DNA of 64,000 bases. Origin: Alphaproteobacteria bacterium (GTDB taxonomy: Bacteria; Pseudomonadota; Alphaproteobacteria; Caulobacterales; Hyphomonadaceae). The position numbers and the translations under genes are program-made. The notes below the pieces were generated by a model that saw nothing but the letters and a program-made list of their open reading frames with translations, was not told the origin of the DNA and did no database searches. How positions within the stretch are numbered: position 1 is the first letter of the stretch; each line of letters begins with the position of its first letter. Below, one piece after another: positions 1 to 11,731 of the stretch. The DNA is taken from positions 372,001 through 436,000 of the forward strand of contig JAAEZZ010000001.1 of NCBI GenBank assembly GCA_018222605.1. The letters are read 5' to 3'.

Positions 1-3000
1 TGCATGCATCAGGACGTCTGGTATCAGACGCACCAGACTTGCCTGCATCACGGGAAGATATGGCGTCTCGTACCATCAAACTTGCTCAGGAAAACCTGGC
101 TGCAGACCATCTGAACAAGCTAGGCTCCCTCGGCATCAAACTTTCCGGCGGCTTCCGTACGCTGGATAAGTTACACAAACGCGACGGCGAACTGATTGCC
201 CATCTCACTCTGCCTGACACGGCCGCGCAAATGGATGCTCCGCTAGCCCATCCGGGGCTTCTGGATGGCGTCTTGCAGGCTGCAGGCGCTACATTGGCTG
301 AGACGACTGACAGTGCTGACACACCCCTGTTCTTCCTGACCGGCATTGGACACCTGACCCTGAAAGACGAGCTTCCAAACCGCATCTGGTGTCATGCCAT
401 TCAGACTTCCGCTTCTACAGCAGACGTAAAATGCGTGGATGTGAACATTTACGACGAGGCTGGCTACGCATGCGGCAGACTGGAAAACATACAGCTGACT
501 CGCACGAACAGTCAGCAGGCTGAGCGCGCTCCAGCCTACGAGATCGCCTGGCATGAAACGCCGGCAAGATCGGTTGCGGCCCGTGATCTGACATCCCCGG
601 CCGCTGTCGCAGAAGACCTTGCGCACGCCTTTGCCGACATCTCCCGGCAGCAGGGCCTGGAAGCTTACTCATCCGTATTGCCAATACTGGATAACATCTC
701 CGTCGGCTATATATCTGAAGCCTTGGGTAAACTTGGCTTTGATCAAACCTTGGGCCGATCCTTCAACATCGCAGAAGAAGCTAAACGACTTTCGATCACG
801 GATGGCCAGAAACAGCTTTTTGGCAGACTGCTGAAGGTCTTGACTGAACAGAGCATTCTCAGCGCAGAGGCCGATCAGTTCACGGTCAGGGCCGCTTTGC
901 CAAGGGCTGATATTGCGAGCTTGTCTGAAACTATCCGCAAATCAAACACAGCTCATGCAGAACTCTCCATTCTGCAGCGCTGCGGGACATCTCTCGCGGA
1001 GGTGTTGACCGGAGACGCGGATGCTCTCGACCTGTTGTTCCCCGGCGGATCACTTGCTGAGGCACGGGAGCTATATGTAGAGGCACCGTTCGCAAGAACC
1101 TATAATGGAACAATCGCATCCTTCTTGAAACAAGTGACACGAGACCTTCCCGAAGGACGGCCTGTGCGGGTTCTGGAAATTGGCGGCGGAACCGGCGGCA
1201 GCACCGGCGCTGTGCTTGAGGCGCTCTCATCTTGCCCCGTTGAATACATGTTTACGGATGTCTCGCCCCATTTCCTTGAGGCCGCATCTGAACACTTTGG
1301 GCATAATAAAGGCTTTCGAACAGGCCTTCTCGATATCGAGAAAAGTCCTGCCTCCCAAGGCTATGAAGGCAAGGAATATGACCTTGTGATCGCCGCCAAT
1401 GTGCTACATGCGACGCAAGATTTGTCACAAACAATTGGCCATGCCAGCCAGTTACTTGCCCCAGGTGGTATCATGACGCTGCTGGAAGGTGTGGTCCCTG
1501 AATTGTGGGTAGACCTGACCTTTGGAATGACACCGGGCTGGTGGCGGTTTACGGATCAAAATCTGCGTGCAAATTACCCTCTGATTTCCAGGAACGCTTG
1601 GCAAACATTGCTACAAGACGCCGAGTTAGCAGACATTGCGAGTGTCGGCGGAGAACAGACGCTGAACCGCGCCGCCTCCCAGCAAATGCTGATCGCAGCG
1701 CGCAAACCTCTGGCCAAACACCGGATTGCCATTCTGGGAGAGAAAACGAACTTCACGGACACGCTGTCCCACGTGCTTGAAACATGCGGGGCTGAACTCC
1801 TGATGGTCTCAGATGTGAATGAGGTGCCAGACGGGGTGCGGGACATTCTGTATCTGGATGCTCTTGCGCTGCCCGATTCAGACCCCATGCCAGCGGATTT
1901 GGAAGCCAGAGCATTCCTCACCCCTCTCAGCCATCTGCAAAACCTGATGGAAGCCCAAAAGGATTGCCACCTCTGGATCGTAACACGCCGGGCATTTGCT
2001 TGCGGAGATGCGCCAGCCAAGTCATGCGGGCAATGGCAGGCACCTCTGCTGGGCCTTGGCCGCGTCGCGGCCCTGGAATGCCCATCCGTTTGGGGCGGCA
2101 TCATCGATCTCAATACGGACGATGACATGCAAACCCAGGCCCAATGCGTGGCGGACTCTCTTCTCAACGCTGACACAGAAGACCAGACGGCATGGCGACA
2201 AGGCAAACGCTACGCCCCAAGGCTTGTGGAGTCTTTCGTGCCTTCTCGGTCCATCCAGTTTGACAAGAATGGCACATATCTGGTCACAGGCGGCTTTGGT
2301 GGGCTAGGCGCCCTGATTGGCCGCTGGCTTGCAGAAAATGGCGCTGGACGCGTCGCTCTGCTGGGCCGGCATCCGGACCCTGATGGCCCTGCCATGACGG
2401 CCATCCGAGAAGCGGGCGCAGAAGCCGTTGCCCTGAAGGCTGATATTTCAGACCCTGAGGCCTTGAATGCCGCTCTGGATACACTGCTTCAGACCGGTCC
2501 CGCCCTGCGTGGCGCGTTCCACGCAGCCGCTCATCTGGAAGCCGCTCCGCTGAAAGACCTGAACGAGGAGCGGGTGCAGTCCATGTTCCGTCCGAAAATC
2601 ATGGGCACATTGGCGCTGGAGCAGGCGCTGAATAAGCGCAGTGCGGATTTCCTCGTCCTGTTCTCTTCAACAACCGCCGTTCTGGGAGCTCCGGGCTTTG
2701 CCCATTATGCTGCCGCAAATGCTTTCCTGGATGCTACGGCAGAGCGTAAGCCGGAAGAATTGCAGGTCTTTTCGATTGGCTGGGGCACTTGGGATACGAT
2801 GCGTCTCGCCTCTGATGATACACAAAAGACCTATACGACTCAGGGCCTGATACCGATGCAGGCCGAAGCCGCGCTCGCCTCATTGGGAGACTTGTTACGT
2901 GACACCAGAACCGGCCATACACTTATTGCCGAGATCGACTGGCAGCGTCTGACAGACCTTCACGAAACCCGCCGCCCGCGGCCCATGTTAAGCGGCCTGA

Positions 3001-3482
3001 AGAAGGTGTCAGGACGCATCCAGCCCGCTGGGGTGAAACAAACCATCAGCCCCGCTGATACTCCGGAAACGGATCTCCATCAGCAAATCGCCAATGCGCC
3101 AGAAGCAGCCCGGCTGGACATACTCGCGCGCTTTGTTTCAGAGCAGGCTGCGCAAGTGATGGGAGAGTCCTCCGGCGACAATATTCCTCCTGACCGGGGC
3201 CTGTTTGAAATGGGGATGGACAGTCTCATGTCCGTAGAGCTACGTCGCAAACTGGAAGTCGGAACGGGCCTGAAACTGCCCTCAACGCTGACATTCAACT
3301 ATCCCAATGTGAACGCACTGGCAGGTTTTCTGGAAACACGCTTCGCTCCGCAGGAGGCCGCCGCCCCCAAGGCCCCTGCCGCATCTGCCGATACGAATAC
3401 CGGCCAAGCAGATGAAGATGACGATATGAGCGAAGAAGACATCATGGCCCGTCTTCGCGCGAAACTGGATACGCTTGAATGA
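1..3482 (+). CDS. Type I polyketide synthase, 3' part (DH-cMT-KR-ACP), truncated by window edge
   Basis: The reading frame is open from base 3 with no stop, so the gene begins upstream and only its C-terminal 1160 or so residues are visible. In order I see the second half of a dehydratase double hotdog (LLDGVLQ, the DxxxQ motif, Asp codon at 264), a SAM-dependent C-methyltransferase (LEIGGGTGGS near 1173), a structural KR-like segment, a ketoreductase (YLVTGGFGGLG near 2277, with the Ser and Tyr of the active site in LFSSTTAV...AHYAAAN), and an acyl carrier domain with the phosphopantetheine Ser codon at 3222 (GMDSLMS). No ER is present. The C-terminus is acidic and then helical (SEEDIMARLRAKLDTLE), like PKS docking tails, which suggests hand-over to the next PKS. 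The stop overlaps the following gene by ATGA. Family and domains are clear; the product is unknown. Confidence 0.93.
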   Translation, partial: HASGRLVSDAPDLPASREDMASRTIKLAQENLAADHLNKLGSLGIKLSGGFRTLDKLHKRDGELIAHLTLPDTAAQMDAPLAHPGLLDGVLQAAGATLAETTDSADTPLFFLTGIGHLTLKDELPNRIWCHAIQTSASTADVKCVDVNIYDEAGYACGRLENIQLTRTNSQQAERAPAYEIAWHETPARSVAARDLTSPAAVAEDLAHAFADISRQQGLEAYSSVLPILDNISVGYISEALGKLGFDQTLGRSFNIAEEAKRLSITDGQKQLFGRLLKVLTEQSILSAEADQFTVRAALPRADIASLSETIRKSNTAHAELSILQRCGTSLAEVLTGDADALDLLFPGGSLAEARELYVEAPFARTYNGTIASFLKQVTRDLPEGRPVRVLEIGGGTGGSTGAVLEALSSCPVEYMFTDVSPHFLEAASEHFGHNKGFRTGLLDIEKSPASQGYEGKEYDLVIAANVLHATQDLSQTIGHASQLLAPGGIMTLLEGVVPELWVDLTFGMTPGWWRFTDQNLRANYPLISRNAWQTLLQDAELADIASVGGEQTLNRAASQQMLIAARKPLAKHRIAILGEKTNFTDTLSHVLETCGAELLMVSDVNEVPDGVRDILYLDALALPDSDPMPADLEARAFLTPLSHLQNLMEAQKDCHLWIVTRRAFACGDAPAKSCGQWQAPLLGLGRVAALECPSVWGGIIDLNTDDDMQTQAQCVADSLLNADTEDQTAWRQGKRYAPRLVESFVPSRSIQFDKNGTYLVTGGFGGLGALIGRWLAENGAGRVALLGRHPDPDGPAMTAIREAGAEAVALKADISDPEALNAALDTLLQTGPALRGAFHAAAHLEAAPLKDLNEERVQSMFRPKIMGTLALEQALNKRSADFLVLFSSTTAVLGAPGFAHYAAANAFLDATAERKPEELQVFSIGWGTWDTMRLASDDTQKTYTTQGLIPMQAEAALASLGDLLRDTRTGHTLIAEIDWQRLTDLHETRRPRPMLSGLKKVSGRIQPAGVKQTISPADTPETDLHQQIANAPEAARLDILARFVSEQAAQVMGESSGDNIPPDRGLFEMGMDSLMSVELRRKLEVGTGLKLPSTLTFNYPNVNALAGFLETRFAPQEAAAPKAPAASADTNTGQADEDDDMSEEDIMARLRAKLDTLE

Positions 3483-4348
3483 CTATGGCATCGCGCAGCA
3501 TAGCCCTGATGGTCGGCTTTGTTCTGGTCTGGACCGTTACGGAAGCCATCATAGGCTCGCTTCTCAACGCCTATTCGCCTCTTCAAATAGTCTGGATGCA
3601 CTATCTGGTGCAGTTGGTGATCTGGGGGCTTGTTGTGGGTGTTCGGGCCCCCAAAAGGCTGGTCCGCACTGGAAAACTCCCCTTCCAGTTTCTGCGGGCT
3701 GTCATGCTGTTGATGATGCCCCTTTCCTGGGCCTTGGCCAGGCAGCAGGGGTTCGGAGACACAGCCTATGCCGCATTCTGGGCCACTCCCTTTTTGGTCA
3801 TCCTTTTTACGGCGATCCTGTCAAAAGACCGGACACCAGCTTTCCTCTGGCTGGCGGCCATTGCAGGCGGTCTGGCGGCAGGCCTGATCTTCACTCAGCC
3901 AGCCATTCCTCATGCACGTGCCTTGGCCGGAATCATTGGAATGCCTGTATCGTTCAGCCTGTTCATTGTGCTGACGCGCGCCCTGAAAACCGAACCAACA
4001 TCGGCAAATCTTTTCTATTTGCCGCTCGGGATCGTCGCTTGCCTGATGCCGTTCATTCCGAAGGTCTGGATGGCACCGGACTTGCAACACATTCTCTTCT
4101 TTATGCTTACCGGAGGAATGAGTTTGGTCGCTTTGTGGATGCTTGATAAAGCCGCAAAAACCGCGCCTCTGGCGCCGGTTGCGCCGCTGTTGCTTGCCCC
4201 AATTCCACTCACATTCCTTCTGAACTGGCTCAGCACACATCAGCGGCCTGGCATTCAGCTTCTTATTCTTCTGGCAATTGTTTGCCTGGCCAGTATTGCC
4301 CCCATACTCCTCGGCCTCAAAGCCCTTCGTAAGAGACTCCCTTCATGA
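3479..4348 (+). CDS. EamA/DMT-family membrane protein embedded in the PKS operon
   Basis: A 289-residue, very hydrophobic protein with about ten predicted membrane segments in two similar halves, as in drug/metabolite transporter (EamA) proteins. It starts inside the stop region of the upstream PKS and its own stop overlaps the start of the next PKS (both ATGA), so the three genes are probably translationally coupled. In this family substrates range from amino acids to drugs and lipids and cannot be read from sequence. The position between two PKS subunits suggests, by inference only, that it moves the polyketide product, a precursor or a pathway by-product across the inner membrane. No signal peptide or soluble domain is visible. 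Confidence 0.85.
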   Translation: MTMASRSIALMVGFVLVWTVTEAIIGSLLNAYSPLQIVWMHYLVQLVIWGLVVGVRAPKRLVRTGKLPFQFLRAVMLLMMPLSWALARQQGFGDTAYAAFWATPFLVILFTAILSKDRTPAFLWLAAIAGGLAAGLIFTQPAIPHARALAGIIGMPVSFSLFIVLTRALKTEPTSANLFYLPLGIVACLMPFIPKVWMAPDLQHILFFMLTGGMSLVALWMLDKAAKTAPLAPVAPLLLAPIPLTFLLNWLSTHQRPGIQLLILLAIVCLASIAPILLGLKALRKRLPS

Positions 4349-7300
4349 CGACCTCCCGTGACATGCTGAAAGACGCACTCAGCGCCATTGAGCGGCTTCA
4401 ATCCAAACTGGATGCTGCCAAGCATGCCAAGACCGAACCGATCGCGATCATCGGGTGCGGTATGCGTTACCCTGGCGGGGTAAAGTCTCTGGATGACCTG
4501 CACAACCTGCTCGCTGGCAAGGTGAACGCGGTTGACACGATCCCGGCCGACCGCTGGGATGCTGATGCATATTACTCGCCTGACCAGAATGCGGCGGGCA
4601 AGATCGTCACCAAAAAGGGGGGATTTGTTGACGGCATTGACCTGTTCGATCCGCAATTCTTCGGCATCTCTCCACGCGAGGCAAAATCCCTCGACCCTCA
4701 GCAACGTCTCCTCCTGCAAACGGCTCATGAAGCCATGGAGACGGCAGGCATAGCGCCAGACAAGCTAGAGGGCAGCGCGACGGGCGTTTTCGTCGGCATG
4801 TCCACGACCGAATATGCTCGCCTCATGTGGGCGAAGGGTGCCGAACAGTCCGATGTCTATTCTGCGACAGGCGGCGCGCTGAATGCCGCTCCCGGCCGCA
4901 TCTCCTTTACCTATGGTTTTCTTGGGCCCTCTGTAGCCGTTGACACGGCCTGCTCTTCGTCTCTGAACGCAATCCACCTTGCCTGCGCCAGCCTTCGCGA
5001 GGGGGAGAGCAATCTGGCCCTGGCCGGTGGCGCCGCCGTGATTGCCCTGCCGGATGCCATGGCCATGTTCTCACGCTGGGGCATGCTTTCGCCAGACGGT
5101 GCCTGCAAGACGTTCGATGCCTCCGCGAATGGCTTTGCCAGGGCAGAAGGCTGCGCCATGATTGCGCTGAAGCGCCTGTCTGACGCAAAGGCTGACGGAA
5201 ACCCCATTCTCGGTCTGATTGTCGGCTCTGCGACCAATTCCGATGGTCGCTCAAGCGGCATGACCGTCCCCAGCGGCCCAGCCCAGGAACGCATGCTCCG
5301 TAACGCCCTGAAGAGCGCAAGCCTGACCCCGCTGGATATCGACTATATCGAGACCCACGGCACCGGCACCCCCATTGGTGACCCGATTGAAGCAGGCGCT
5401 CTGGGTGCCGTTCTGTGCGAAGGGCGCGAGCGCTCAAACCCGCTGCGCATCGGTTCCATCAAGACCAATATCGGCCATACGGAAGCGGCTTCCGGCATTG
5501 CAGGACTGCTGAAGGTTCTGGCCTGCATGAGATCAGAAACGCTTCTGCCCCAGCTGCATTTCGAAACACCCAATCCCGGCATTGACTGGGATGACCTCGC
5601 TTTGGAGGTTGTAACGTCCCCTACGCCATGGCCGCACCGCGAAACGCCACGCCGGGCGGGTGTCAGCTCCTTTGGTTTCAGCGGCACGAATGTGCACATT
5701 TTGCTCGCTGATGCGCCCGAGGCCGAGACGGCAGAGACAGAACAAGATCATGCCCTGCGCACAGTCCCGCTATCAGCCGAGACGCCGAACGCCCTGCGGG
5801 ATCTTGCCGAGCGATACGCGAACTATCTGAGCCGTGACAATGCTGCGGACTTTCCCTCTTTCACGCGCACACTTGCCGTTGGCCGCGCGCACCGTATGCA
5901 CCGCGCCGCACTTGTTGCTTCGAGCACAGATGACCTGCGGCAAAGCCTTGAGGCCCTGGCCCAGGGCGCTCCCTTGCCCGGCTCCGCGACGGGACATGCC
6001 AGCACGAGCCAATCCCCCCGCATTGCATTCCTGTGTACCGGTCAGGGCTCTCAATATCCCGGCATGACACGAGAACTGTACGACACCGAGCCAGTCTTCC
6101 GCGCGTCCATCGACACCTCGGCACAAATCCTGTCCGGCATACTGGATCGCCCGCTTCTCGATGTGCTGTATACTGAGAGCGAAGAAGACAGCCGTATCTC
6201 TGAAACCCTCTACACCCAGCCTTGCCTGTTTGCCGTGGAATACGCCATGGCAGAGCTATGGAAATCATGGGGCGTTACGCCAAACATGGTCGCCGGGCAT
6301 AGCATCGGCGAATATGTCGCCGCCTGCCTGGCCGGGGTCATGTCGCATGAAGATGCCCTGCGTCTGGTTGCCGAACGCGGGCGCCTGATGCAGCAATTGC
6401 CCGCTGGCGGTGCCATGGCGGCAGTCTTTGCAAGCGAAGACCAGATTGCGAACCTACTGAAAGGCCGCGAGAAAGACATTGCCATCGCCGGGGTCAACGG
6501 CCCTGAAGAGACCGTCATTTCCGGTAGTGAGGAAGCCGTTGAGGCCGTCCTCGCAGAGCTGGAAAGCAAGGAGGTCGGGTTCCGCCGCCTGTCGGTCAGC
6601 CATGCCTTCCACTCGCCGCTGTTGGACCCGATGCTGGACGCCTTTGAGCAGGCAGCAAATAAAGTCTCTTACCAATCTGCGCGATTGCCGCTCATTTCGA
6701 ACCTGACCGGTCAGGCTTTCCCGACCAGCAAGAAGCCTGACGCCAGATATTGGCGGGACCATGCTCGCGGAGCCGTACGCTTCGCAGACTGTATTGGCGC
6801 ACTGGAAGACGCGGGCGCAGATATCCTCATCGAACTTGGCCCTCAGCCAGCCCTGCTTGGGCTCGCGGCTCGCGCACGGCCTGCAGCCAAATGGAAAACC
6901 ATTCCATCTCTCCGCCGCGGCCAAAAGGATGTGCCAACCATTCGCGGGGCCTTGGCACAGGCCTATACAGCTGGCGCGAAAATCAACTGGCAGAATGTCT
7001 ATAAAGAGACCGGCGGGCGACTTGTGGCCGTACCGACCTATCCTTTCCAGCAGCAACGCTACTGGATCGACGAACAGCCAGCACGCCGTCAACGCGCCAG
7101 CGAAGCCTCTCATCCTCTGCTGGGCGACACGCAGAAAGTGCCCCCTCCGGTACATGCGCATATTGCAACGCTGAGCGCTGACTTCCCGGCCTTTCTGGCA
7201 GATCACAAGATTCTTGATCGTGTCATCTTCCCCGCGACCGGCTATATCGAGATGGCCTTGTCAGCCGGCAAGGCGGCGATGGGCAACCAGCCCGTCACGC

Positions 7301-10300
7301 TTTCCGGGCTGATGATCGATGCCCCGCTGGAATTACAGGCTGGCACGGATCATACGCTGCATACGGAACTCATGCCCTCACATGAGGGAGGCTTTGACTT
7401 CATCGTCCGCGGTGTGCCTGAAGACGAGAGAGCTGACTGGCAAAATCTGGCGCATGCTCGCGTGTCCGGCACCACAACATCCGACAGCGTAAATATTCCG
7501 ACCGTGGCTGAGGCACGCGCCGTATGCGTTGAGGCCGTCGATGTTGCGGCGCTTTACGAGAGGCTGGAAAATCTGGGCCTGCAATACGGACCTCTGTTCC
7601 GTGGGCTCACCACCCTGAACAAGGGAGACGGCATCGCCGTCGGCATGGCAACCCTGCCGAACACAGAACAGGACATTACCAGCTACAGTTTCCATCCGGC
7701 CCTTCTGGACAGCGTCTTCCATGCTGTCACCGCAATCGTGCCAAGCGATGGCGAGGACCGCCTCTACCTGCCGACCGGGATCGACAAGATCCAGTGGCTG
7801 AGGCCTGCCCCGCGCAATGTCGTCATGGTTGCCCGCCTGCGCCAGGAAAGCTCTGATGATGTTGAGCTTGTCGCTGACCTGCTTATGGAAACAGAACAGG
7901 GCGACCCCATCGCCCGGCTGGAAGGGCTTCATGCCCGCGTTGTTTCAGTTGAATCACTGGCGCGCGCCCTGGGCACAGGAAAGATGTCTCTCAATGAACT
8001 GACCTTGTCCTGGCAGCCTGTTGCCTCTGTTGAGGCCGCAAGCCCGGAGAGCATCCTTGTCGTCGGGAATGGCGACGCCCAGTCTGAGACTATCGCAAAG
8101 ACACTGAACGCACGCCTGATCGCGCCTTCGCAATTGTCAGCAGCGCTCAAGCAAGCCCCTACGTCCTGGGTCATTTCCTGCGCAGGTATGGAGGCGACAA
8201 ATGGCGATGAGGAGGACACCTTTGGCGCAGCAAAATATGATGCTGTCCTGTCCACACTTCAGACCCTTCAGCATGACGGCGCCGGGACAAATGTGTGCGT
8301 CCTGACCCGCGGGGCCAAGGTCGTCCTCCCTGAGGAACTGCCGGACCTTTCAGCAGGCACACTTGCCGGCCTATGCCGTACAGCAGATACGGAAATTCAG
8401 ACCTCGCACATCCTGCAGCTGGATCTCGATCCCCATACGGATCTAAATCCGAAAATAATTCTGCAAGCCCTGGCGTTGTCCGACAGTCAACCGGAACTGG
8501 CCCTGCGCAATGGCACATTCTTCTCTCCCCGCCTCAGCCCTGTGGAAGCCCCGGCCGCGCTGGCGGAAGACACACGTAGCGTACTGCGCGTGACAGAGCG
8601 TGGGGACCTCAACCGGCTGCGCCTTGAGGAAGAACCGCGCACTGCGCCAGGTGATCACGATGTAGAGATTGCCATCCGCGCGAGCGGCCTCAACTTCCGG
8701 GACGTGCTGAACGCGCTTGGCATGTATCCAGGCGATCCTGGCCGACTGGGCAGTGAATGCTCCGGTGTGGTCAGCAGGGTTGGCAAGCATGTTTCCAGCT
8801 TGAAACCCGGAGACCCTGTCGTAGCCCTCGCAGGCGACAGCTTTGCCAGCCATGTCACCGTCAGGGAGCGCTTTGTGCTTCCCAAACCGGCCTCAATTAC
8901 TTTTGCGGACGCCGTCACGCTGCCGAACACCTACCTGACGGCTGCGCTGTGCTTTGCTACGGCAGGCGGGCTGAAACCAGGCCAGCGCGTACTGGTCCAT
9001 GCCGCTGCCGGGGGCGTCGGATTTGCGGCCATGCAGCTTGCCCTGCGGGCGGGCGCCGAAGTGATTGCCACGGCGGGCAATGAGAGAAAGCGCGCCTTCG
9101 TGCTTGAACACGGCGCCTCTCACGCATTCGATTCCCGGTCTGACAGTTTCGGCGAACAGATCGAACAGGTCACGAAAGGCGAAGGCGTCGACATGGTCAT
9201 CAACGCGCTGTCCGGAGACATGATCGTCGCTGGCATGCGTGTGACCAAGCCAGGCGGCTATTTCCTGGAGATCGGCAAAAACAATATCTGGACACCGGAA
9301 GAAGCAGCCGAGCGTGCTCCACATGTGAATTACCGTATTGTTGATCTGGGCGAGCAGATCATTGCAGATCCCGATCAGGTCAGATCCTCCTTCGACAGTC
9401 TTCTGAAGGATGTTGAAGCCGGATCCCTCGCCCCGCTTCCTGTACAGGCCTTTCCTCTGTCCAGGGCCGCTGATGCGTTCCGCTTCATGGCGAATGCCCG
9501 GCATACGGGCAAGGTTGCCATCCTGCCTGATTTTCAGACAGGCAATAGCATGGAAGTGCGTCAGGACGGGGCCTATCTGGTCACCGGGGGACTTTCAGGT
9601 CTTGGGCTGGCTGTTGCAGAACGTCTCGCAAAGCGTGGGGCTGGCGAGATCATTTTGGCAGGCCGCTCAGGCGACAGCGCCGAAGCGCAGCAGACGGCCA
9701 CCCGGATGGCTGAGGCCCATGGCTGCACAGTCCGCGCCATTGCCTGCGATATCGCAGATTCTGCCTCTGTCGATCATCTCTTCACCACTGCATTGAAAGA
9801 CAGCCTGCCCCTGCGCGGTATCATGCATGCCGCCGGCATTCTGGACGACTCTCCACTCAGCGAACAATCTTTGGACAGCCTTCTTAGGGTTGCTGGACCG
9901 AAGATCGATGGCGCGCAAAATCTGACACGCGCCGCATCCCGTGCGCCGCTTGATTGGTTCGTCCTCTTCTCCTCCAGCTCCGCCATGTTTGGCGGGCCGG
10001 GTCAGGCGAACTATGCGGGCGCAAACGCCTGGCTGGACAGCCTGGCCGCACACGGGCGTAGCGAGGGCAGACCGATCACCAGCATTGGCTGGGGCGCCTG
10101 GGCAGATGTCGGCATGGCCGCACGCCTGCCGGAATCCGTTCGGCAACGCTGGGAGCGCATTGGTCTGGGCCAGATCGGCGTTGAAGCAGGCCTGGATGCG
10201 ATGGAAAAGCTGGTGAGCCAGAACCTTCCCTATGCGAGCGTGGTTGAGGCGAACCTCAATCTTCTCGCTTCACAAAGCGGCACCCGCGTGCGCGCCCTTC

Positions 10301-10686
10301 TGGGCCGCAATGCTGTCCCGGCTGAGACAGCGGGCGCTGACGCTTCTACCGAAGCAGAAATTGATATCCTGTCTGCCCCTGCGGATCAGAGACCCGAACT
10401 TCTGGAAGGCTTCCTGAGAATCCATGTCGGGCGTGCCCTTGGCTATGCACCATCCTCGCTGGATCCCGACATGCCGATCTCTGATCTGGGATTCGATTCC
10501 CTGATGGCTGTGCAAGTCCGCAATGCTATCACGGCTAGCCTCAAGATAGATATCGGTCTGCGTGACCTGCTGAGCGGGATCACCATTAATGAGGCAGTCA
10601 CAAAACTGATCTCAGCCCTGAATGCGGCAAACAATGAGGCTGCCGGAGCGGAAACAGAAGAAGAATGGGAGGAAGGCGTTATCTGA
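4345..10686 (+). CDS. Type I polyketide synthase module KS-AT-DH-ER-KR-ACP
   Basis: A 2113-residue complete reducing PKS module. Residues 1-30 form a charged helix, probably a docking coiled coil. The ketosynthase (about 31-455) has the triad Cys203 (DTACSSS), His338 (HGTGT) and His378 (NIGHTEA). The acyltransferase has GHSIGEYV (Ser653) and HAFH (His756), the pattern usual for malonyl-CoA loading. The dehydratase has His954 and Asp1122, but HKILDRVIFP carries Asp where HxxxGxxxxP normally has Gly. The enoyl reductase shows LNFRDVLNALG near 1450 and the NADPH loop HAAAGGVG near 1552. The ketoreductase shows YLVTGGLSGLG near 1744 with Ser1877 and Tyr1890. The ACP Ser is 2052 (GFDSLMA). The tail is acidic and there is no thioesterase, so chain release must be done elsewhere or in trans. 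A fully reduced acyl extension is predicted. Confidence 0.96.
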   Translation: MTTSRDMLKDALSAIERLQSKLDAAKHAKTEPIAIIGCGMRYPGGVKSLDDLHNLLAGKVNAVDTIPADRWDADAYYSPDQNAAGKIVTKKGGFVDGIDLFDPQFFGISPREAKSLDPQQRLLLQTAHEAMETAGIAPDKLEGSATGVFVGMSTTEYARLMWAKGAEQSDVYSATGGALNAAPGRISFTYGFLGPSVAVDTACSSSLNAIHLACASLREGESNLALAGGAAVIALPDAMAMFSRWGMLSPDGACKTFDASANGFARAEGCAMIALKRLSDAKADGNPILGLIVGSATNSDGRSSGMTVPSGPAQERMLRNALKSASLTPLDIDYIETHGTGTPIGDPIEAGALGAVLCEGRERSNPLRIGSIKTNIGHTEAASGIAGLLKVLACMRSETLLPQLHFETPNPGIDWDDLALEVVTSPTPWPHRETPRRAGVSSFGFSGTNVHILLADAPEAETAETEQDHALRTVPLSAETPNALRDLAERYANYLSRDNAADFPSFTRTLAVGRAHRMHRAALVASSTDDLRQSLEALAQGAPLPGSATGHASTSQSPRIAFLCTGQGSQYPGMTRELYDTEPVFRASIDTSAQILSGILDRPLLDVLYTESEEDSRISETLYTQPCLFAVEYAMAELWKSWGVTPNMVAGHSIGEYVAACLAGVMSHEDALRLVAERGRLMQQLPAGGAMAAVFASEDQIANLLKGREKDIAIAGVNGPEETVISGSEEAVEAVLAELESKEVGFRRLSVSHAFHSPLLDPMLDAFEQAANKVSYQSARLPLISNLTGQAFPTSKKPDARYWRDHARGAVRFADCIGALEDAGADILIELGPQPALLGLAARARPAAKWKTIPSLRRGQKDVPTIRGALAQAYTAGAKINWQNVYKETGGRLVAVPTYPFQQQRYWIDEQPARRQRASEASHPLLGDTQKVPPPVHAHIATLSADFPAFLADHKILDRVIFPATGYIEMALSAGKAAMGNQPVTLSGLMIDAPLELQAGTDHTLHTELMPSHEGGFDFIVRGVPEDERADWQNLAHARVSGTTTSDSVNIPTVAEARAVCVEAVDVAALYERLENLGLQYGPLFRGLTTLNKGDGIAVGMATLPNTEQDITSYSFHPALLDSVFHAVTAIVPSDGEDRLYLPTGIDKIQWLRPAPRNVVMVARLRQESSDDVELVADLLMETEQGDPIARLEGLHARVVSVESLARALGTGKMSLNELTLSWQPVASVEAASPESILVVGNGDAQSETIAKTLNARLIAPSQLSAALKQAPTSWVISCAGMEATNGDEEDTFGAAKYDAVLSTLQTLQHDGAGTNVCVLTRGAKVVLPEELPDLSAGTLAGLCRTADTEIQTSHILQLDLDPHTDLNPKIILQALALSDSQPELALRNGTFFSPRLSPVEAPAALAEDTRSVLRVTERGDLNRLRLEEEPRTAPGDHDVEIAIRASGLNFRDVLNALGMYPGDPGRLGSECSGVVSRVGKHVSSLKPGDPVVALAGDSFASHVTVRERFVLPKPASITFADAVTLPNTYLTAALCFATAGGLKPGQRVLVHAAAGGVGFAAMQLALRAGAEVIATAGNERKRAFVLEHGASHAFDSRSDSFGEQIEQVTKGEGVDMVINALSGDMIVAGMRVTKPGGYFLEIGKNNIWTPEEAAERAPHVNYRIVDLGEQIIADPDQVRSSFDSLLKDVEAGSLAPLPVQAFPLSRAADAFRFMANARHTGKVAILPDFQTGNSMEVRQDGAYLVTGGLSGLGLAVAERLAKRGAGEIILAGRSGDSAEAQQTATRMAEAHGCTVRAIACDIADSASVDHLFTTALKDSLPLRGIMHAAGILDDSPLSEQSLDSLLRVAGPKIDGAQNLTRAASRAPLDWFVLFSSSSAMFGGPGQANYAGANAWLDSLAAHGRSEGRPITSIGWGAWADVGMAARLPESVRQRWERIGLGQIGVEAGLDAMEKLVSQNLPYASVVEANLNLLASQSGTRVRALLGRNAVPAETAGADASTEAEIDILSAPADQRPELLEGFLRIHVGRALGYAPSSLDPDMPISDLGFDSLMAVQVRNAITASLKIDIGLRDLLSGITINEAVTKLISALNAANNEAAGAETEEEWEEGVI

Positions 10687-10831
10687 CGCTTCCTCTCAAA
10701 CCGGCAAAACGCATTTTAGGGAAAACTCTTCACGGGCACATAGACTGACGCAATCCGACAAACCGGGCAGATTTTCCTGAAAGATATCAAAGCCTGTGAG
10801 GATAGTTTTCCCACCCCCATAAGGGCTGGCG

Positions 10832-11030
10832 TATACTCATCCCTGTCGCGGCTTGTGACATGGCTCGCGGCGGGTCCGAAGCTTTGGGGGACCCTCCCGA
10901 TTACCCCCCCTCGGCTTCACGCGGATGGACGGCGCCCATGTGCACAGGGGCGCATCAGATCCACTCCAACCCATGAATTTGTCCCTGTCACACATGGAGC
11001 GCCGCTCCATCCGCAAGGACCCAAAAATGC
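10832..11030 (+). ncRNA. Candidate structured RNA with three-way-junction potential
   Basis: No convincing coding sequence lies between the PKS and the next gene (10687-11086). This stretch has a TATACT hexamer at 10832-10837 followed by strong complementarity. GGGTCC at 10872-10877 can close with GGACCC at 11017-11022. Inside lie a small hairpin (GAAGC 10878-10882 with GCTTC 10914-10918, extended by G and C runs) and a long stem of 10921-10949 with 10983-11014 that is nearly perfect over more than 25 pairs. Two alternative folds exist: GGGTCC can pair locally with GGACCC at 10889-10894, and the 3' arm holds its own 15-nt palindrome at 10995-11009. No tmRNA tag, SRP core or tRNA feature was found. 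The strand is inferred from the promoter-like hexamer and the terminator-like hairpin at 11037. Confidence 0.4.
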
Positions 11031-11036
11031 AAAAAA

Positions 11037-11060
11037 CCGGACGGGCAACGCCCGGTCCGG
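11037..11060. terminator. Terminator hairpin between candidate RNA and hydrophilic protein gene
   Basis: CCGGACGGGC and GCCCGGTCCGG form a GC-rich inverted repeat with a short loop. Read on the minus strand it is followed by a run of T residues (GTTTTTTGC), a classic intrinsic terminator for the minus-strand gene ending at 11087. On the plus strand the T run is short (CTTTT), so it may also end the candidate RNA, though less strongly. Confidence 0.75.
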
Positions 11061-11086
11061 CTTTTGGTACTGATACTAGCCTTCTG

Positions 11087-11655: not shown

Positions 11656-11731
11656 TGGTGTGCCCTACAGGGTTCGAACCTGTGACCTACTGATTAAAAG
11701 TCAGTTGCTCTACCAACTGAGCTAAGGGCAC
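11656..11731 (-). tRNA. tRNA-Lys (anticodon TTT)
   Basis: Read on the minus strand this is a complete 76-nt cloverleaf. It has acceptor GTGCCCT with AGGGCAC, D arm AGCTCAGTTGGTAGAGC, anticodon loop CTTTTAA giving TTT, T arm ACAGG-TTCGAAC-CCTGT, discriminator A and an encoded CCA end. Confidence 0.98.

Follow-up and report, generated by a model that had tools for sequence, protein, structure and literature searches.

The embedded transporter gene

The window analysed here is a stretch of 64,000 nucleotides from the genome of a marine Hyphomonas (G000:C14:372001-436000, G000 being the window's own genome), in which a gene for a drug/metabolite transporter (DMT) of EamA type lies between two genes encoding polyketide synthases (PKSs). 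The transporter gene (289 amino acids, window 3479..4348, + strand) is preceded on the same strand by the gene for PKS5 (2195 amino acids, C14:368895-375482), whose 3' part occupies window 1..3482, and followed by that for PKS6 (2113 amino acids, window 4345..10686, ending at C14:382686), and it overlaps each of them by four nucleotides (ATGA). The original prediction, which placed a DMT-type transporter between two PKS genes with ATGA at both junctions, was thus exact. The window cuts both PKS5 and the cluster to which these genes belong, and the latter was reconstructed from the contig sequence upstream of the window with Pfam and NCBIfam scans. Below, G009 designates H. pacifica (taken as T16B2), the 96% match to which gave the genus of the window genome, and G002, G028 and G013 are other Hyphomonas genomes.

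By its modelled fold and its homologs, the predicted protein is a divergent DMT/EamA protein. Taken alone, it matches the Pfam EamA family (PF00892) with an E-value of 0.2 and 12.4 bits, under the cut-off of 28.2 bits, which is a detection criterion and not a biological one; the only NCBIfam model listed, for a carboxylate/amino acid/amine transporter, was reached with an E-value of 0.028 and 13.8 bits against a cut-off of 230. The G002 ortholog scores 31.6 bits, above the EamA cut-off, the four near full-length distant relatives that were scanned are all clear EamA proteins (E 2e-16 to 3e-33), and EamA-type proteins among the ten top matches from other genera share about 23–29% identity with it. 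The structure model obtained from an 11-row alignment reached a pLDDT of 86.6 and a pTM of 0.86 (a 3-row alignment gave a pLDDT of 41). In Foldseek, DMT structures came first, the best being 5i20, and the 37 PDB matches with E <= 0.001 included, beside this entry, nucleotide-sugar, CMP-sialic acid and triose-phosphate transporters and the choline importer LicB (7paf, TM 0.77); a PDB sequence search with the 3-row transporter profile returned 0 of 177,635. The EamA label of the original prediction is therefore kept on account of the ortholog, the homologs and the fold, and not of the Pfam score of the window protein. Compared with the EamA branch of the DMT proteins (PF00892, 5i20), the likeness lies in a fold matching over the full length (TM 0.78), whereas the protein is too diverged for Pfam alone and has its close relatives, in the genomes searched, only inside this PKS operon. 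Ordinary EamA proteins also exist in other parts of the same genome, where 15 domain matches fall at 8 places.

An intact transporter gene occupies the same slot, with both four-nucleotide overlaps, in G000, G009 and G002, the proteins of the latter two being 96% and 51% identical to that of G000. Since both overlaps recur in G009 and G002, those at the transporter are not due to chance. Between G000 and G009, the transporter differs by 29 synonymous changes over 222.5 sites and 15 non-synonymous changes over 644.5 sites (Fisher p 9e-9), and its dN/dS of 0.165 compares with 0.160 for PKS5 and 0.164 for PKS6; synonymous sites are saturated between G000 and G002, and no ratio is given for that pair. 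These values indicate purifying selection on the transporter about as strong as on PKS5 and PKS6 and, together with the conserved slot and overlaps, support its being a long-standing member of the PKS operon. Close matches were found in 3 of 61 genomes, its own included, all of them in this cluster, and a separate search for the transporter returned one locus, in H. pacifica. No match to it was detected on plasmids by tblastn, the PKS matches on plasmids amounting to 587 records. Among 385 genomes of the class, the best-scoring match outside the genus is 29% identical. A tblastn search with the nine megasynthases of the cluster (see below) over about 1.5 kb on each side of 19 extra-genus relatives found no neighbouring PKS or nonribosomal peptide synthetase (NRPS) sequence, except at one locus (L053), where a single weak match of 63 amino acids to the ER/dehydrogenase part of PKS6 was noted.

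The fourth genome with the cluster, G028, has the same gene order without an intact transporter. About 380 nt separate the PKS5 stop from the PKS6 start, where the other three genomes have an 870-nt gene, and this gap (G028:C47, about 27.6-28.0 kb, L033) holds a decayed transporter between open PKS5 and PKS6 frames. Frameshift-tolerant alignment of the gap gave scores of 82, 87 and 90 with the proteins of G000, G009 and G002, respectively, against means of 34.5 and 34.2 (SD 5.4 and 5.5, maxima 51 and 55) for 200 dinucleotide shuffles aligned with the G000 and G002 proteins only, and 27–28 for the reverse strand. The remnant covers residues 185–287, is frameshifted and shows an in-frame stop when aligned to G002; DNA similarity between G028 and G002 extends into the PKS6 start, and a candidate N-terminal trace lies at the expected distance, though weak (tblastn E 0.11). 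A different small gene in this slot was ruled out, as the 104-amino-acid open reading frame present there overlaps the decayed transporter. PKS1 to PKS6 are single open frames in G028, and the NRPS, flippase and thioesterase frames are open too. A deletion of such size is not a base-calling error, though an assembly fault might conceivably lie behind it. Judging from the decayed remnant, the transporter was once present in G028 and then lost while the other frames stayed open, and an obligatory coupling of transport to synthesis, the stronger form of the original prediction, is not supported. That prediction also held that the link to PKS function would weaken if related PKS pairs lacked the gene and if it occurred elsewhere with other neighbours. 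The outcome is mixed: one of the four clusters has lost it, but no close relative was found elsewhere in the searches made. Taken together, these features make the transporter look like an old, selected, accessory part of the cluster and not a core one.

The PKS-NRPS island and its assembly line

The entire PKS-NRPS system spans about 55 kb. According to Pfam and NCBIfam, the + strand carries, in this order, genes for an Sfp-like phosphopantetheinyl transferase (C14:342519-343466), a MOP/Wzx-type flippase (C14:343561-345039), which belongs to the cluster in each of the four genomes, a discrete thioesterase (C14:345242-346078, PF00975, 4e-43), PKS1 to PKS5, the transporter and PKS6. The six PKS genes stand in a row, with one module per polypeptide: PKS1 (KS-AT-KR-ACP), PKS2 (KS-AT-DH-ER-KR-ACP), PKS3 (KS-AT-MT-ACP), PKS4 (KS-AT-DH-MT-ER-KR-ACP), PKS5 (KS-AT-DH-MT-KR-ACP) and PKS6 (KS-AT-DH-ER-KR-ACP). 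A divergent operon encodes NRPS1 (C14:337420-342387), in which a single A-T pair follows two condensation domains, PKS7 (C14:332871-337457, KS-AT-KR-ACP), NRPS2 (C14:329578-332874, TubC_N-C-A-T) and two adjacent alpha/beta hydrolases, of which one (C14:328796-329581) has exosortase-A-associated hydrolase 2 as its nearest NCBIfam model, below the cut-off, and the other (C14:327864-328808) was located by tblastn. The extension upstream advised in the original prediction thus added four PKS genes, the thioesterase and the NRPS/PKS/NRPS operon.

Pfam confirmed cis-AT PKS modules and C-A-T modules across all nine megasynthases. The KS cysteine and the AT GHSxG motif are present in 7/7 PKSs, and all three C domains keep HHxxxD in the four genomes, the last G of the C-domain motif being replaced in the first C domain of NRPS1 (HHxxxDA) and in that of NRPS2 (HHxxxDH). 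As regards the malonyl-type AT claimed in the original prediction, the PKS6 AT carries HAFH; the PKS5 AT reads FAAH at the same place, so that its specificity is not clear. The claimed lack of a thioesterase (TE) is correct for the PKS5 and PKS6 proteins, and, within the E-value limits applied, Pfam detected no TE domain on any of the nine megasynthases, but the discrete thioesterase lies directly before PKS1 on the same strand. Among the matches listed for the scanned cluster proteins, none was to a glycosyltransferase. The predicted product of the cluster would be a lipid-peptide-like compound.

The ATGA overlaps do not distinguish the transporter from the rest of the run. Every one of the six junctions between PKS1 and PKS6, its own two included, is a four-nucleotide overlap in G000, G009 and G002, as are the four junctions from PKS1 to PKS5 in G028 and two junctions of the divergent operon. 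Such an overlap is a general style of the operon and alone fixes no ratio, so that the fixed stoichiometry at first ascribed to the transporter is not supported.

The polypeptide ends flanking the transporter resemble the class 2 docking domains described in excerpts of PMC9113145: a class-2-like tail on PKS5 (MSEEDIMARLRAKLDTLE) and an N-terminal helix on PKS6, which are conserved in the four genomes, G028 included, in keeping with the docking-like tail and head first noted there. PKS6 itself finishes in an acidic C-terminal tail, which reads EWEEGVI, EWEEGVI, EWEEGTL and EWEEGTI in the four genomes, and PKS7 ends in REEFVI in all of them. Short C-terminal motifs of fewer than 15 residues that bind beta-hairpin docking domains are described in the same excerpts, with tubulysin named, and by analogy the PKS6 and PKS7 tails could be motifs of this kind. 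On the NRPS side, Pfam detects two TubC_N domains in NRPS1 and one in NRPS2, a domain that we take to be of the beta-hairpin docking type. The KS of PKS7 carries QTACSTS in place of DTACSS, and motifs like it occur in KS domains that follow an NRPS. The tails and the TubC_N domains suggest a hand-over from PKS6 to an NRPS and from PKS7 to an NRPS. Because its tail resembles those binding TubC_N and the NRPSs carry TubC_N, PKS6, which has no TE, probably stands in the middle of the line and hands on to an NRPS; an assembly line ending at PKS6 was rejected as the likely reading in view of the EWEEG-type tails and the NRPS TubC_N domains. Candidates for release within the cluster are the discrete thioesterase and the two alpha/beta hydrolases. 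The cis-AT PKS-NRPS hybrids treated in the excerpts of PMC9113145 (curacin, enacyloxin, tubulysin and epothilone) are alike in that each polypeptide carries one cis-AT module, with acidic helices at the C-terminus and helices at the N-terminus, and in the TubC_N domains of the NRPSs; the Hyphomonas cluster differs from them by the DMT gene between two PKS genes and, in the genomes searched, is confined to Hyphomonas.

Among 42 Hyphomonas genomes, the cluster, recognized by a full-length PKS6 ortholog, is present in four (G000, G009, G028 and G002). PKS6 matches with E <= 1e-100 occur in 12 of the 42, the other eight being partial matches to other PKSs with 35–38% identity. In seven of these eight (L027-L032 and one more), the match is an open frame of about 2080–2130 amino acids that is 36–38% identical to PKS6 over about the first 900 residues. 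A sample of 249 genomes from the order (48 genera), drawn from a larger group, yielded three that reach E 1e-200, all Hyphomonas; G002 is not one of them. Gene order is the same in G009 (94–99% protein identity) and in G002 (48–67%). The cluster genes of G000 and G009 show 91–98% DNA identity, against 95.7% for the 2.5 kb of chromosome upstream, and thus give no support to a recent exchange of the cluster between these two genomes. The window genome also holds a second ketoacyl-synthase gene group (G000:C15:416922-424161) with open frames of 1317 and 2044 amino acids, the latter with two KS matches, which might at a guess be a polyunsaturated fatty acid-type synthase.

In G000, the island is bordered by a 333-bp direct repeat, one copy of which follows PKS6 (window 10742..11074, + strand); the other, 92% identical, lies outside the window and just upstream of the cluster (C14:327483-327815). 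A tRNA-Lys(TTT) gene on the chromosome next to the island (window 11656..11731, - strand) is also found at the empty site of G013. The latter genome has no PKS6 match at E 1e-100 and a single repeat copy at the corresponding position, flanked by folP and tRNA-Lys (folP is named after NCBIfam; folK and tgt were named by eye), and the stretches of it that align with the two flanks of the G000 island have 330 bp in common. This clean empty site places the island between two copies of one G013 intergenic segment, and homologous recombination through the repeat segment may be one way to such a layout. Some match to the repeat exists in 10 of the 42 genomes. Two full-length copies are present in G000 and one in each of G009 and G013, the remaining matches being pieces of 34–161 bp; in G009, contig C12 breaks off within the downstream copy, the other end of which opens contig C46. 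In G028, none of seven proteins of the G000 flanks, FolP included, has a match in the 80-kb stretch around the cluster (about 14 and 11 kb outside it), and the G028 cluster seems, from these flanks, to sit at a different chromosomal site, which makes the transporter part of a unit found at two sites. A transposase-like open reading frame, named by eye, adjoins the G028 cluster.

Possible roles of the transporter

On balance, we think it somewhat probable that the gene encodes a cluster-specific accessory transporter of the PKS-NRPS island, whose most likely substrate would be the product, a shunt product or a small precursor. The chain would travel from PKS1 to PKS6 by class-2 docking helices, PKS6 would give it to an NRPS by its C-terminal short motif and TubC_N, PKS7 would hand on likewise, and release would fall to the free thioesterase or to the two alpha/beta hydrolases, with the transporter moving its substrate across the inner membrane. 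We would first guess at export or self-protection, since 5i20, the nearest fold, is presumably that of YddG of Starkeya novella, an amino-acid exporter. The gene would bring a fitness gain in three lineages and could be lost without loss of the assembly-line genes, its loss being perhaps covered by the MOP flippase of the cluster or by host pumps. Several points weigh against this interpretation: the Pfam score of the window protein alone stays under the EamA cut-off, the docking of PKS6 and PKS7 onto the NRPSs is read from their tails and from excerpts of PMC9113145, searches of the open-licence literature listed no DMT exporter of a PKS-NRPS product, and the loss in G028 has two other conceivable readings, namely that the gene had no tie to the product at any time or that the cluster of G028 does not function.

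The same fold would suit an importer bringing in an amino acid or an acyl/carboxylate starter, with G028 obtaining that precursor otherwise. The DMT family has importers too, LicB stands beside 5i20 in the Foldseek results, the only NCBIfam model listed points to carboxylates, amino acids and amines (at a score far under its cut-off), and the loss in G028 would be easier if the precursor were also made in the cell. We nevertheless hold import to be unlikely, as no cluster enzyme was noticed that points to a special imported precursor and both the ATs and the A domains might draw on metabolites of the cell; the direction of transport is not readable from sequence. Equally doubtful is that the DMT gene is a passenger, kept for a reason other than the polyketide, or because the ATGA overlaps help PKS6 translation. 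The gene did decay in G028 while the PKS genes remained open, and between G000 and G002 it diverged more than the PKSs (51% versus 59–67% identity), and an AAGAG stretch upstream of the PKS6 start in G000 and G028 makes the overlap not obviously necessary. Against this stand purifying selection equal to that of its neighbours, the same slot in three genomes, and close relatives restricted, in the genomes searched, to this cluster, the best-scoring match beyond the genus being 29% identical.

It is very unlikely, in our estimate, that the DMT protein is a dedicated, translationally nested part of the line, perhaps acting on a PKS5/PKS6-stage intermediate at the membrane and not on the finished product; G028 would then be rewired and make a different or unexported compound. 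A partnership in which the DMT protein and the MOP flippase place a lipid-like product in the outer leaflet, in the manner of ArnE/ArnF, appears more improbable still. The flippase gene accompanies all four clusters and, judging by the domains, the chain would be long, methylated, partly reduced and linked to amino acids, but ArnE and ArnF are small, half-size DMT flippases, whereas this transporter is full-length, and the matches listed for the scanned cluster proteins include no glycosyltransferase.

Returning to the accessory transporter that we favour, the nearest case found in the literature search is the demurilactone (dml) cluster of Streptomyces, a type I PKS cluster for which excerpts of PMC9673147 likewise list a single transporter gene of the EamA family, DmlB; it differs in that DmlB has regulators as neighbours and is not part of the run of PKS genes, in an actinobacterial cluster of another layout. 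For Hyphomonadaceae, excerpts of PMC12239160 report that its one isolate of this family was positive for biosynthetic domains, and those of PMC3908369 mention Hyphomonas only as the host of a homologue. No paper on such a Hyphomonas cluster stood out in searches of the open-licence literature, and the 55-kb hybrid island is apparently uncharacterised. The searches made there listed no worked example of a small DMT protein serving a polyketide-peptide pathway. A natural comparison is offered by the three genomes that keep the embedded DMT transporter intact and the one left with a remnant; it bears on whether small DMT proteins export the products of such pathways or feed them.

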